Source: Zetaproteobacteria bacterium CG06_land_8_20_14_3_00_59_53 (GTDB lineage Bacteria; Pseudomonadota; Zetaproteobacteria; Mariprofundales; Mariprofundaceae). From it: DNA of 57,523 bases. Every line of letters begins with the position of its first letter. Position 1 is the first letter of the stretch. The stretch is from positions 1 through 57,523 of the forward strand of contig PEWE01000029.1 of NCBI GenBank assembly GCA_002779605.1, read 5' to 3'. The translations under genes were made by a program, and so were the position numbers. The notes beneath the pieces were generated by a model. It did no database searches, was not told the DNA's origin, and was given only the letters and a program-made list of their open reading frames with translations. This document shows, one piece after another, positions 33,195 to 38,483 of this stretch.

Positions 33195-34700
33195 ATGCAT
33201 CGTCTGTTTGCCAGCATTGTTTCACTCGCATTCGCCACGCTAGCGGCCATGCCTCCCGCCGCAGCCGCAGAGATGACCCTGAAACAGGTGATTCAGGGCG
33301 TGCTGGAAAACAATCCGCAGCTTGCCATCAGCCGGACCGATTCCGAGCTTGCCGCCGCCGATGCGCAGCGCATCGAAGGACTGCTGGATACCGGCATCAA
33401 CGCGACGGTGACCGGCAGCGATGAGCGGGTACCGACGGTCAGTGATTTTCAGGCCGCAAAAAACCGCAAAATGCAGGTCTCCGGCGGCATCAGCCAGCCT
33501 CTGAAGAATGGCGATACGCTGGGTGTATCGGCCAGTTATTCGCGCAGCGCGCAGGGCTTCAATTCACCTCTGGCAGCCCAGCTGGCACGCTTCAATCCGG
33601 CCTATCGTTCGCAGATCGACCTCACCTACCGCATCGCTCTGCAGCGCGGCTCAAACCGCCCCGACTACGCCATGGGCATGCAGTCGATCGAAGCGAAAAC
33701 CCGGGCCGCCGAACTGAACGAACACATCCTTGCCAGAAATCTGGCCCTGTCGGCACTCAATGCGTTTTACCGTCTGAGCGCCGACGATATCAACGTGGAT
33801 ATTTCAAAGCAGGCTGTGAAGCGCGCGCGCGACCTGCTGCGCTATCAAAAGGTGCGTCAGTCCTTCGGCCTGATCGAGCAAGCCGATGCCCTGCAGGCAG
33901 AAGCCCTGCTTGCCGCACGCCAGACTGATTTGCAACGCGCGCAGTCCGCACGGCTGGCGGACGAAACGAATCTGCGCAGATTGATGCGCGGCACATCGCA
34001 TCAATCCATCTCGCTTTATCAGCCTCCGCTTTCGGCCAGCGCTTCCGTTCCTGATTTCGACGCCGCCGAGAAACTGGCCATCCGGAAACGCCCGGACCTG
34101 CGTGCACTCGATGCCGGCCTGAAGGCTGCCGAATCCGATCTCGATGCCGCGCGCGGTTTTGACGCCGCACAGGTCGATATGGTGGCACAACTCGGTTCAC
34201 GTTCGCTGGATGCACGCCCCGATCATGCTGCCGGCAGAGCCTTTTCGCTGAACGACCGCTACGCCGCCCTGTCGGTGGAGATGCAGGACAATGTGGGCAG
34301 GAATACGGCAAGAGCCGCCATACGCAAGGCGGAGCTGGCACGCCAGCGCATCGCCGAGCAGCGTGATCTTGCGATGGAACAGATACGAGACGATCTGGCG
34401 GTTGCCATCTCGGCCATCCGCGGCGGTCTGCCGAACTTGCGCATGGCCCGTCTGCAAGCGCTGGCTGAACAGAACAAATACCAGGCAGAGCTCGACCGCT
34501 ATCGTAACGGTCGCTCGGATACGGCGACGCTGGTGCAGTTTGAAGGCGAGTTGCGCAATGCCCAGTTACAGGAGCGACTGCAGATGCAGACCCTGCAACT
34601 GGCCCGTTTCCAGATGGCATGGGCCACGGGCAGCCTGCTGGAGAATCTCGGCGTTGCATTGCCATCCGGCGATACAGCGGCAGGCAGGGCACAACCATGA
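33195..34700 (+). CDS. TolC-family outer-membrane efflux protein
   Basis: 501 residues. Signal peptide cut near AAA-E at about 24, then two homologous helical halves typical of the OEP/TolC fold, forming the trimeric outer-membrane exit duct. N-terminal half begins MTLKQVIQGVLENNPQLAI, a common TolC opening. GGGAG before the ATG. Its last four bases overlap the RND gene (ATGA), so the two are made together. Confidence 0.9.
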   Translation: MHRLFASIVSLAFATLAAMPPAAAAEMTLKQVIQGVLENNPQLAISRTDSELAAADAQRIEGLLDTGINATVTGSDERVPTVSDFQAAKNRKMQVSGGISQPLKNGDTLGVSASYSRSAQGFNSPLAAQLARFNPAYRSQIDLTYRIALQRGSNRPDYAMGMQSIEAKTRAAELNEHILARNLALSALNAFYRLSADDINVDISKQAVKRARDLLRYQKVRQSFGLIEQADALQAEALLAARQTDLQRAQSARLADETNLRRLMRGTSHQSISLYQPPLSASASVPDFDAAEKLAIRKRPDLRALDAGLKAAESDLDAARGFDAAQVDMVAQLGSRSLDARPDHAAGRAFSLNDRYAALSVEMQDNVGRNTARAAIRKAELARQRIAEQRDLAMEQIRDDLAVAISAIRGGLPNLRMARLQALAEQNKYQAELDRYRNGRSDTATLVQFEGELRNAQLQERLQMQTLQLARFQMAWATGSLLENLGVALPSGDTAAGRAQP

Positions 34701-37700
34701 AAAACCTCATCGCTTTTTTTGTTCGCCGTGGTCTGCTGGTCAACCTGATCTCCCTGATGCTGCTGGCAGGCGGCATCTATGCCGGCGCCAATATCCAACG
34801 CGAGGCATTCCCCAGTGTGAATTTCGATATCGTGGTGGTCGCCGCAGTGTATCCGGGAGCCGCACCCCGCGAGGTGGAGCAATTGCTGCTCACCCCCATC
34901 GAGCGGGAACTCAAGGGTATCGACGGCATCCATGTGATCCGTTCCACGGCCTATAGCGGCTCGATGCAGATCACCGTGGAAGTGGACCCGAACTACAAGG
35001 ATCGCTCGCGGCTGGTTTCCGATATCCAGCAGGCTATCAACCGCGCCGACCTGCCGGTCGATCTGCCTGCCGATCCGGTGATCTCTGAAATCAAATCCGA
35101 GCAGGCGCCGGTGCTCACCTTCTCCATCTTCGGCGATTTCGACCCGCTCACCCTGAAACGTCTGGGCGACGATATCGAAGATGATGTGCTCGGGCTGAAG
35201 GGTGTGGCGAAGATCCTGGTGCAGGGCGACCGCAAGGAAGAGATCCGCATCGTCCCGGACCCGGAAAAGATGCGCCAGCAGCGTGTCTCCACCAGTGACC
35301 TGGTCGCCCTGATCCGCGGCTGGAACATCAATGCCCCGGGTGGTCGCTTAAAGGCCCCTGACGGCCAGCGCATCATCCGCATCACCGGCGAGTTTTCCTC
35401 GGCTGAGGATGCGGCGAATCTGGTCATCCGTGCCAATGAGCGCGGCGAGGCTGTGCGGCTGGGCGATATCGCCGAGGTGACGCAGACCCTGGAGCGGCCG
35501 GACCGGTATGTCGGCGCGCAGGGCGATCCCGCGCTGAACATGATCGTGCTGAAAAAAGGCGATGCCGACATCATCGAGCTTGTGGATACTGTGCGTGCCT
35601 ACCTGAAAACCGTGCCGCAGAAATACGGTGCTGGCGTGAATGTCCGCGTGTACAACGATATGTCCACCATCACCCGTCTGCGTCTTGGCGTGCTCACGCA
35701 GAACGGTGCCATCGGCCTTGCTCTGGTCATGCTCACCCTGATGCTGTTCCTGCGCCCTGCCGTGGCGCTGACCACGGCCTGGGGCCTGCCCATCATCTTC
35801 TTCTCCGGCCTGCTGGTGCTCTATATGTCGGGGGTGACGCTGAATCTGCTGACCATGTTCGGCTTTATCATGGTGCTCGGTCTGATGGTGGACGATGCCA
35901 TCATCATCGGTGAAAACGCCACCTGGCATATGGAACAGGGCCTGCCGCCGGAAGATGCGGTCATCAAGGGAACCTATGAACTGCTCGGCCCGGTTTCCGC
36001 CACCGTGCTGACCACCATCGTCGCCTTCCTGCCGCTGATGCATATGGACGGCATCATCGGCAAATTCATCTATTCCATCCCCGTGGTCGTCGTCACGCTG
36101 TTGCTGTTCTCATGGCTGGAGGCGGTCTTCATCCTGCCGAATCACATCCGCGATGTGGCCAATGCGAAGAAGCATCCGCAGGAAAGGGCGTTTTTTGTCT
36201 GGATCACGAATGTCTATGTATGGTGGCTCCAGAGGGCTGTGAAACTCCGCTACCTGACCATCCTGCTGACCATCGTCGGCCTGCTTGGCGCAGGCATGCT
36301 GGCCTCGACGATGAAATTCCAGTTGTTCCCCAACGGTGCGGAATCCACCTTCTATCTGCGCGTCACCATGCCCATCGGCACCACACTGGAAACCGTGCAG
36401 GCCACTCTGAAAAAACTTGATGTCGAGGTGCGCAAGCGCATCGACCCTGCCCTGCTGGAAACCACCACGATGGTGGCAGGCGAAAACAGCGCCGACCAGC
36501 GCGAGGCTCTCAAGCAGATTGGCGACCGCTTCGGTTTCGAGCGCATCATCCTGATCCCGTTCACCGAACGCTCGGTATCCGCCTTCGAGGTGATGAGCAA
36601 GATCGAAAAGGATATTCCGGCCCTGTTCCCCGATCTTGATATCAGCTTCGCCATGGAGCGCGCAGGCCCCCCTGTCGGCCGCGCCCTGCAGGTGGAGCTG
36701 ACCGGCAGCGATGAAGATGCCATGGTGCGCACAGCCAAGCGGCTGATAAAGGTACTGGAGGGCATCCCCGGTGCCACGGCCATAGAAAGCGACCTTGAGC
36801 CGGGCGATAAAGAACTGCATATCGTGCTTGATCGCAGGCTGGCCGCCTATGCCGGTGTGGATCTCGCCACAGTCACCACGCAGGTTCGTGCCGCCTTCGA
36901 TGGCCTGCGGGTATCCACCCTGAAAAAAGGCAAGGAAGAGGTGGATGTGACCATCCGCTACGCTGAAGCAGCGCGACACGATCCGGCCACATTGATGCAG
37001 CTGGAGGTCCCCAACCTGCGTGGCGGCCTGGTTCCGCTTTCCCGCATAGCCCATGTCGAGGAAAAACCCGGTACCACCAGTATCCGCCACAAGGATGGCG
37101 ACAGGGTGATCAATGTCTCGGCTGAAGTGACAAACGGACAGATCACATCCAAGGAATTGAATGACAAGGTGGCAGCCATGCAGCAGCAGTGGCTGGGAGA
37201 TGATGCCGGCAAGCTGCATTTCCATCTTGGCGGCGAGCAGGAGAAAAGTCAGGAATCGGTCCGCGGTCTGGCCTTCAGCTTTCTGTTCGCGCTGGCCGGT
37301 ATCTTTGTGATTCTGGCGATCCAGTTCAATCGCGTCAGCTACCCGATTCTGGTGATGCTGGCCATCCCGTTCGGCGCCATCGGTATCGTCGTCGGCTTTT
37401 TCCTGCACGGGCAGCCGATCTCCTTTATGGCGATGATGGGCTTTGTCGCCCTCACCGGCGTGGTGGTCAATGCCTCTCTGGTAATGGCTGTGTTCATCCA
37501 GCGGCAGATCGCCGATGGCGTGGCATGGCGCGAAGCGATCATCGAAAGCGGCAAGCGTCGCTTGCGCGCGGTGCTGCTCACAGCCATCACCACAGTTGTC
37601 GGCCTGCTACCCACGGCCTACGGCTGGGGCGGTCACGATCCGTTTGTTGCTCCGATGGCTCTTGCCCTTTCCTGGGGTCTGATGTTCTCCACGGTGATTA

Positions 37701-37804
37701 CGCTGTTCTCCGTGCCGGCAGCGCTGGGTATCGCCATGGACTGCAAATCAGCCGTTGTGAAGCTGCTGGGAAAAGTCTTCCCGAAAGCGGCATCTTCTGC
37801 TTAA
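34697..37804 (+). CDS. RND-family efflux pump, HAE1/AcrB type
   Basis: Inner-membrane proton-driven exporter, 1035 residues, twelve membrane helices and two large periplasmic loops. TM4 carries the proton-relay pair in GLMVDDAIIIGEN; GFVALTGVVVNASLVM marks the second half. Opening (RRGLLVNLISLMLLAGG, QREAFPSVNFD) is that of the environmental HAE1 branch, not of AcrB itself. The ATG overlapping the tolC stop is preferred over an upstream codon inside tolC. No periplasmic adaptor gene accompanies the pair. Confidence 0.95.
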   Translation: MKNLIAFFVRRGLLVNLISLMLLAGGIYAGANIQREAFPSVNFDIVVVAAVYPGAAPREVEQLLLTPIERELKGIDGIHVIRSTAYSGSMQITVEVDPNYKDRSRLVSDIQQAINRADLPVDLPADPVISEIKSEQAPVLTFSIFGDFDPLTLKRLGDDIEDDVLGLKGVAKILVQGDRKEEIRIVPDPEKMRQQRVSTSDLVALIRGWNINAPGGRLKAPDGQRIIRITGEFSSAEDAANLVIRANERGEAVRLGDIAEVTQTLERPDRYVGAQGDPALNMIVLKKGDADIIELVDTVRAYLKTVPQKYGAGVNVRVYNDMSTITRLRLGVLTQNGAIGLALVMLTLMLFLRPAVALTTAWGLPIIFFSGLLVLYMSGVTLNLLTMFGFIMVLGLMVDDAIIIGENATWHMEQGLPPEDAVIKGTYELLGPVSATVLTTIVAFLPLMHMDGIIGKFIYSIPVVVVTLLLFSWLEAVFILPNHIRDVANAKKHPQERAFFVWITNVYVWWLQRAVKLRYLTILLTIVGLLGAGMLASTMKFQLFPNGAESTFYLRVTMPIGTTLETVQATLKKLDVEVRKRIDPALLETTTMVAGENSADQREALKQIGDRFGFERIILIPFTERSVSAFEVMSKIEKDIPALFPDLDISFAMERAGPPVGRALQVELTGSDEDAMVRTAKRLIKVLEGIPGATAIESDLEPGDKELHIVLDRRLAAYAGVDLATVTTQVRAAFDGLRVSTLKKGKEEVDVTIRYAEAARHDPATLMQLEVPNLRGGLVPLSRIAHVEEKPGTTSIRHKDGDRVINVSAEVTNGQITSKELNDKVAAMQQQWLGDDAGKLHFHLGGEQEKSQESVRGLAFSFLFALAGIFVILAIQFNRVSYPILVMLAIPFGAIGIVVGFFLHGQPISFMAMMGFVALTGVVVNASLVMAVFIQRQIADGVAWREAIIESGKRRLRAVLLTAITTVVGLLPTAYGWGGHDPFVAPMALALSWGLMFSTVITLFSVPAALGIAMDCKSAVVKLLGKVFPKAASSA

Positions 37805-37893
37805 GATTGGCGTGGTTCAGCGTTGAAATATTAACCCTTTGCGACACTCGGACATGGTAAATAAATCTTAATTAGCGTTTAACATCGATTTAA

Positions 37894-38002
37894 GAGCCGC
37901 CCCCATATGTTTCGGTCTGGCTCGGCGCCGCCCTCCTCTTCCCCTCCCTCCCCTTGGCGTCGAGCGTTCGAAAAAAGCCCCGGCATTGCGCCGGGGCTTT
38001 TT
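37894..38002 (+). ncRNA. Candidate small RNA with exposed pyrimidine loop and terminator
   Basis: In the gap after the RND gene a 10-bp stem (37920-37929 with 37956-37965, one G-U pair) presents a 26-base loop that after its first base is only C and T and holds several CCTCC and CCCTCC runs. This is followed by a strong terminator (37977-38002). A competing helix GAGCC/GGCTC begins at 37894. Loops of this kind in known small RNAs pair with Shine-Dalgarno sequences. The 5' end is unknown; TTGCGA-N17-TAAATC near 37839-37867 is a weak promoter candidate, or it may be cut from the RND mRNA. Confidence 0.5.
37977..38002 (+). terminator. Rho-independent terminator
   Basis: GCCCCGGC (37977-37984), loop ATTGC, GCCGGGGC (37990-37997), then five T. 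The matching A-run before the stem makes it potentially bidirectional. It sits 170 bases after the RND stop, which is far for a simple gene end. Confidence 0.85.
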
Positions 38003-38045
38003 GTTTGTATCCGATACGCCCATGCATGACTTCCGTTAGCCGAGA

Positions 38046-38062
38046 TTGGCCTGTTTCTTGCG
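38046..38062 (+). promoter_or_regulatory. Sigma-54 promoter of the 38115 gene
   Basis: TTGGCCTGTTTCTTGCG fits the 17-base -24/-12 consensus (TTGGCACGN4TTGCW) at GG and GC with correct spacing; mismatches are two in the middle and the last base. Start of transcription would be near 38073, giving a leader of about 40 bases to the AAGGAGG and ATG at 38115. Confidence 0.65.
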
Positions 38063-38114
38063 AGTTGCGATTGCCCGCTTCAGGCACACATCGGCGATCA
38101 AGCAAGGAGGCCGC

Positions 38115-38483
38115 ATGAAAATCCGTACCGGACAACTGACGGGGCCGCAGCAAGGTGCCAGCACAAGCCGGGTGAGCAGCACCGATGGCCGCTTTCAGGT
38201 GCTTCTGGACCACGAACTCAAGGATGCTGTCGAAAAACAATCCGACAGCACGCCATCAGGCCGCGGCGACAAAGAACATCCGTATCGCCTGATCGGCGAC
38301 GCGACCCGCCTGCTGGACGATGCGATCGCGCAGATTGAAAGCAGCGACACGCCGAACGATAAAACTATCGAATCACTGCAGCTGTTGAGGAACGAGTTAA
38401 GTCATCTGGGTCAGGGTGAACACGACTTGAAAGAAGCGGGCATCATCCTGAGTGTGGAAACCGAACGCCTGAAATCGTGGTAA
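38115..38483 (+). CDS. Small protein under sigma-54 control, likely flagellar
   Basis: 122 residues, no signal peptide. An N-terminal disordered part (MKIRTGQLTGPQQGASTS...) with a short FQVLLDHEL motif is followed by two or three amphipathic helices (residues 62-118). The layout recalls small flagellar accessory or chaperone-like proteins of FliT/FlgN size, but I recognise no family. AAGGAGG six bases before the ATG gives the start. The sigma-54 promoter and the flagellar neighbourhood point to a role in flagellar assembly; that is inference. Confidence 0.65.
   Translation: MKIRTGQLTGPQQGASTSRVSSTDGRFQVLLDHELKDAVEKQSDSTPSGRGDKEHPYRLIGDATRLLDDAIAQIESSDTPNDKTIESLQLLRNELSHLGQGEHDLKEAGIILSVETERLKSW

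Follow-up and report, generated by a model that had tools for sequence, protein, structure and literature searches.

In this study, we analysed a locus within a 57,523-nucleotide stretch of DNA, which is referred to in its entirety as the window. The features at this locus are listed below, with coordinates in the window and the evidence for each in brackets.

34697-37804, + strand: AcrB/AcrD/AcrF-family RND efflux gene, immediately upstream (Pfam ACR_tran)
37868-37872, 37879-37883 and 37890-37894, + strand: three TTAA(T/C/G) half-sites with 11-nt spacing, a putative OmpR/PhoB-type response-regulator box (logo of 39 copies, alignment)
37906-37911, + strand: -10-like TATGTT, family consensus TAnnnT (alignment column conservation)
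37918-38003, + strand: predicted sRNA of ~85 nt (5' end placed by the -10, 3' end by the terminator)
37920-37930, + strand: 5' arm of the hairpin stem (covariation)
37931-37954, + strand: all-pyrimidine loop CCCUCCUCUUCCCCUCCCUCCCCU with the anti-Shine-Dalgarno motifs CCUCC and CCCUCC (loop alignment, unpaired probability)
37955-37965, + strand: 3' arm of the hairpin stem (covariation)
37972-38002, + strand: intrinsic terminator of 13 pairs with a U tail (fold; compensatory changes in relatives)

It had been proposed from the letters of this DNA that a 10-bp stem here carries a loop made almost wholly of C and T with CCTCC and CCCTCC repeats, and both sequence and folding bear this out. The stem of the window copy has 10 bp (37920-37929 with 37956-37965), an eleventh pair (G-U) being possible, and closes a 26-nt loop (37930-37955, GCCCTCCTCTTCCCCTCCCTCCCCTT) that consists of pyrimidines apart from its first base; the hairpin at 37920-37965 can hence be drawn with a stem of 10-11 bp and a loop of 24-26 nt. 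Folding gave a mean unpaired probability of 0.9997 for positions 37931-37954 and a minimum free energy of -47.8 kcal/mol for 37885-38008 (z = -3.3 against shuffled sequence). At 25 nt, the pyrimidine run is longer than any other in the window, where the runner-up has 18 nt, and this length was reached in none of 60 dinucleotide shuffles. A strong terminator had been placed about 170 bases past the last gene, and the 13-pair structure indeed begins 168 nt 3' of the stop codon of the AcrB-family gene (37804). According to the folding, one hairpin and this terminator are the whole layout of the predicted RNA in the window copy. The start of the RNA, which the original prediction had set at 37894, needs correction, as this position lies in promoter-like DNA (TATGTT at 37906-37911) and the start is probably near 37918.

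A DNA search detected the element in each of the three further genomes of the genus and, at ~75%, in a second family of Mariprofundales, the order of marine iron-oxidising Zetaproteobacteria. In a first MAFFT alignment of seven copies, changes on both sides were already seen in 5 of the 11 pairs of the stem and in 3 of the 13 of the terminator. The main structure test used two MAFFT alignments, neither of them fitted to the structure; here both-side changes were seen in 8 of 10 stem pairs and 99.7% of cells were paired. None of 500 shuffles reached the observed covariation score of 0.44, and sliding the pairing partners lowered it to 0.02-0.17, with paired cells down to 30-40%. The locus has, in other words, the conserved RNA secondary structure expected of an sRNA gene. 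CCTCC and CCCTCC occur in each of the 38 aligned loops and CTCCTCC in 28; the loops are 17-31 nt long, and C or T makes up 92% of their letters. Lack of conservation of stem or loop had been named at the outset among the grounds for refuting the proposal. When this was checked, stem, loop, promoter and terminator proved to be kept across the order with compensatory changes.

Two covariance models were used to follow the family further. A pattern scan also matched unrelated high-GC genomes, which were set aside. The first model (R1), which includes the terminator, matches 68 of 78 Mariprofundales genomes and also, weakly, many genomes elsewhere in the phylum, which we attribute to its terminator half. 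Therefore a second model (R2) was built from 38 copies with the upstream box and the hairpin but with the terminator left out. R2 matches 72 of the 78 genomes, including all 39 of high quality, and none of 320 genomes sampled elsewhere in the phylum; since it was trained on members of the order, this restriction to Mariprofundales partly reflects the reach of the model. Members outside the order were accordingly rejected, as they were represented by weak R1 matches alone and none was left with the terminator-free model. Copy number ranges from one to six per genome, most Mariprofundus genomes having two to six, with tandem copies in some. The source genome has two, the window copy and C9:58652-58755, the latter with a stem unrelated to that of the window copy and the loop CCCUCCUCCCCUCCCU. 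Likewise, the single-contig genome G011 contains copies with at least three different stems while loop type and upstream box are alike, and siblings with unrelated stems generally retain the loop core (CCCUCC, then CUCCCU) and the box. Copies adjoin different genes and lie on different contigs, and therefore they appear to be separate transcription units. Nothing in the window exceeded the gathering threshold of Rfam release 15, and all matches of a permissive Rfam scan were sub-threshold and mostly on the terminator. A literature search found no study of small RNAs in Zetaproteobacteria or Mariprofundus, and the family is apparently new to description.

The region upstream of the hairpin is conserved together with it. 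Across 39 copies the consensus reads TTAAT-N6-TTCA(T/C)-N7-TCA-N11-TAnnnT, so that the last half-site ends 11 nt before TAnnnT; the alignment holds the half-site variants TTAAT-N6-TTCA/TTAA, then TCA/TAA. No -35 consensus was found upstream of the -10 in the 39 copies, nor a sigma-70 consensus pair in this region of the window. Direct repeats that are spaced by 11 nt and extend over the -35 region characterise promoters that OmpR/PhoB-family regulators activate. With a conserved box and -10, and a terminator in nearly all copies, the element has the parts of a transcription unit of its own, and we consider it very probable, on sequence grounds, that the stretch encodes an sRNA gene for a regulatory RNA of roughly 85 nt. 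The spacing of the box to the -10 is the same as in the porin-pstS promoters of the genus, where the half-sites are TGTCA; the half-sites of the sRNA box (TTAAT/TTMAY) do not follow the Pho-box pattern TGTCAT-N5-TGTCAC. PhoB itself was for this reason rejected as the regulator, the letters of the box differing from those of porin-pstS Pho boxes of the same genus. As the spacing is alike and the letters are unlike, we infer that a putative regulator of the OmpR/PhoB family, other than PhoB by consensus, acts on the box. A PmrA/QseB-type box is no more than a possible lead, and a literature search on it found nothing usable. When the promoter motif was scanned over the source genome, matches fell mostly inside genes or over start codons, and the full arrangement was present at the two sRNA copies only. 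Two observations were made in passing. Textbook Pho boxes (TGTCAT-N5-TGTCAC, with the -10 after 10 nt) occur in the first 110 bases of the oriented loci L089-L092, upstream of the porin-pstS operon, and a one-mismatch match to the promoter box, possibly due to chance, immediately precedes ccoN (cbb3 oxidase) and reads on the opposite strand from this gene (G000:C28:24433-24460, in L074).

An Hfq-dependent sRNA presupposes Hfq in the organism. The Hfq model (PF17209) gave no match over cut-off in any of 78 Mariprofundales genomes, with a single sub-threshold match of 20 bits in G023, and a search for ProQ in 17 Mariprofundales genomes was negative; the E. coli positive control was detected in both cases. 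As neither protein was detected, an Hfq-independent mode of action seems likely.

Several C-rich-loop RNAs from other bacteria resemble the Mariprofundales sRNA in part. LhrC of Listeria monocytogenes exists in five copies, all activated by the response regulator LisR; CU-rich UCCC sites in its loops attach to target mRNAs and hinder translation, and Hfq is dispensable (PMC4132741). Both RNAs are multicopy, and response-regulator control, shown for LhrC, is inferred for the Mariprofundales sRNA; however, LhrC has two loops and a linker with three short UCCC sites rather than one long loop, and no homology is claimed. The alpha-r14/cuckoo/CcsR/NfeR1 RNAs of alphaproteobacteria combine an ultraconserved CCUCCUCCC anti-Shine-Dalgarno loop with differing stems and several related copies; NfeR1 has three hairpins with the motif in each, and CcsR1-4 arise by processing of a DUF1127 (ccaF1) operon (PMC10746234, PMC10253847). 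The Mariprofundales family likewise keeps an anti-Shine-Dalgarno loop on different stems in several copies, but each copy has one hairpin with its own promoter-like box and terminator. Neither the three motif-bearing hairpins nor the DUF1127 operon of the cuckoo type was found, the flanking genes scanned containing no DUF1127. As to the cuckoo-type motif CCUCCUCCC, 25 of 38 loops have CCCTCCTCC, and the window copy carries CCCUCCUCUUCCCC. In Xanthomonas, sX13 uses its C-rich loops to repress, independently of Hfq, mRNAs in which G-rich motifs lie close to the start of translation (PMC3771888). sX13, which has three loops, and RepG of Helicobacter pylori (PMC8295292) are close systems that differ in layout, and no sequence relation to either is claimed. 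LhrC and sX13 are tested precedents for C-rich loops that act on mRNA without needing Hfq, and by analogy the best reading is that the Mariprofundales sRNA would act like these two or the cuckoo RNAs.

We therefore propose the following mechanism by analogy and from the sequence features, and rate it in full as somewhat better than an even bet: a multicopy, Hfq-independent, trans-acting sRNA under response-regulator control whose C-rich loop pairs with G-rich Shine-Dalgarno regions. The ~85-nt RNA, one of one to six siblings per genome, would be transcribed independently, with all siblings activated by an OmpR/PhoB-family response regulator that probably senses envelope or metal conditions. 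Consisting of just two tight hairpins, the RNA could be stable without Hfq. Its loop would pair with G-rich Shine-Dalgarno stretches (AGGAGG, GGGAGGGG) of several mRNAs, block 30S binding and so lower translation. The CCUCC and CCCUCC of the loops are complementary to AGGAGG and GGGAGG, and the earlier claim that matching sites precede many local genes agrees with the source genome, where GGGAGG stands 4-12 nt before ATG 174 times versus 46 times for the reversed pattern; therefore many start sites could pair with the loop. Since GGAGG-like sites precede very many genes, complementarity by itself lacks specificity. For a few real 5' UTRs, the predicted duplexes ranged from -10 to -28 kcal/mol versus -4 for one lacking such a site, values that are illustrative and come without a background distribution, and among the candidate 5' UTRs with GGGAGG none was singled out as a target. 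Going further, the siblings may form an order-wide regulon in bacteria that lack Hfq and in which ProQ was not detected. It would be the chief post-transcriptional branch of a single two-component system that senses the envelope or metals, and the shared box and loop would set a translational threshold for all mRNAs with a strong G-rich Shine-Dalgarno sequence rather than each sibling having single targets; this extension is speculative, and we would give it about one chance in five. A near-universal multicopy family in an order lacking Hfq is a natural test of chaperone-free base-pairing sRNAs, would repeat in another lineage the C-rich-loop solution of Listeria, Staphylococcus, Helicobacter, Xanthomonas and rhizobia, and provides a tangible element that can be cloned to study how marine iron oxidisers regulate their genes.

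Conservation of the loop exceeds the need of CCUCC pairing alone, and this would also fit a protein ligand. The siblings might offer one C-rich motif to an RNA-binding protein, such as Rho, ribosomal S1 or a protein of the KH or cold-shock type, and titrate it in the way that RsmY/RsmZ sequester CsrA. The near-identical loop core on unrelated sibling stems speaks for such titration, and redundant copies under one promoter type are typical of titrating RNAs. However, loop length and exact wording vary, which suits redundant pairing registers better than one protein site, the studied C-rich-loop precedents work by base pairing and no candidate protein came up, and we regard this explanation as rather unlikely. 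Equally doubtful is a base-pairing sRNA whose G-rich targets lie away from Shine-Dalgarno sites and are stabilised or activated, as with PmaR of Agrobacterium tumefaciens. PmaR, found only in Agrobacterium and a close Rhizobium, has the same spoon shape, in which a long stem ends in a large single-stranded loop, rich in C, that makes the contact with targets; this loop acts outside Shine-Dalgarno sites, with predicted sites across transcripts, and mostly activates (PMC6234868), which counsels caution about Shine-Dalgarno blocking. Yet the interacting region of PmaR is stated not to be anti-Shine-Dalgarno (PMC6234868), whereas CCUCC, the exact anti-Shine-Dalgarno core, is in every loop of the Mariprofundales family.

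Pairing of a separately transcribed sRNA with Shine-Dalgarno regions also has to be set against the view that the locus is merely the structured 3' end of the RND mRNA, a terminator with a stabilising hairpin and no separate RNA. No terminator separates the sRNA from the RND stop codon ~115 nt upstream of it, and the AcrB-family efflux gene is the usual upstream neighbour, in synteny with the sRNA in much of the order: in the largest neighbour cluster, which has 22 entries in 19 loci, this gene lies upstream on the same strand, and it also precedes the sRNA in L182, L190 and L191, of which L191 comes from another Mariprofundales family. Nevertheless, tandem and dispersed copies without an adjoining RND gene each have their own conserved box and -10, the box is conserved together with the hairpin, and a 3' end does not need a conserved C-rich loop, so that this view is very improbable. 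Readthrough from the RND gene probably stops at the sRNA terminator, and the sRNA would therefore also lie within the 3' UTR of the RND mRNA. A chance hairpin is contradicted by the conservation and strong covariation, and a short open reading frame, suggested by a frame that starts with the ATG at 37907 and runs through the hairpin in the source genome, by the absence of this ATG from most relatives (TACTGT, TAGTGT) and by loop lengths that differ by 1-14 nt irrespective of frame, which leaves either with a negligible probability.

The placement between the efflux gene and a sigma-54 flagellar promoter, earlier regarded as suited to a trans-acting regulator, held in part: the efflux neighbour is conserved and a sigma-54-like site is present, but the flagellar side of the window is not conserved among copies and the site belongs to the downstream gene. 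This -24/-12 element (38047-38064, TTGGCCTGTTTCTTGC; TTGGC-N7-TTGC) recurs in L005 of a relative, and the gene 3' of it (38115-38483, 122 aa) has no Pfam match. Other sRNA copies adjoin a glycine-zipper lipoprotein gene, a DUF4390/NtrY-like operon, a phosphomannomutase or a Na/H exchanger gene; that several neighbours are envelope-related is suggestive only. In L184 and L186 of Mariprofundus, one sibling lies upstream of the DUF4390 - NtrY-like sensor operon. Mariprofundus also has a second hairpin type (L053:292-385, L073:1675-1764, L051:1700-1789), with the stem AGATCTGGCACC / GGGTGTCGGATCT and a C-rich loop (about CCCACTTCCCACACTTCCCC), that contains neither CCCTCC nor a TTAAT box. It sits just 3' of, and convergent with, the Na/H exchanger gene, and in L051 and L073 it is found downstream of a main-type copy.
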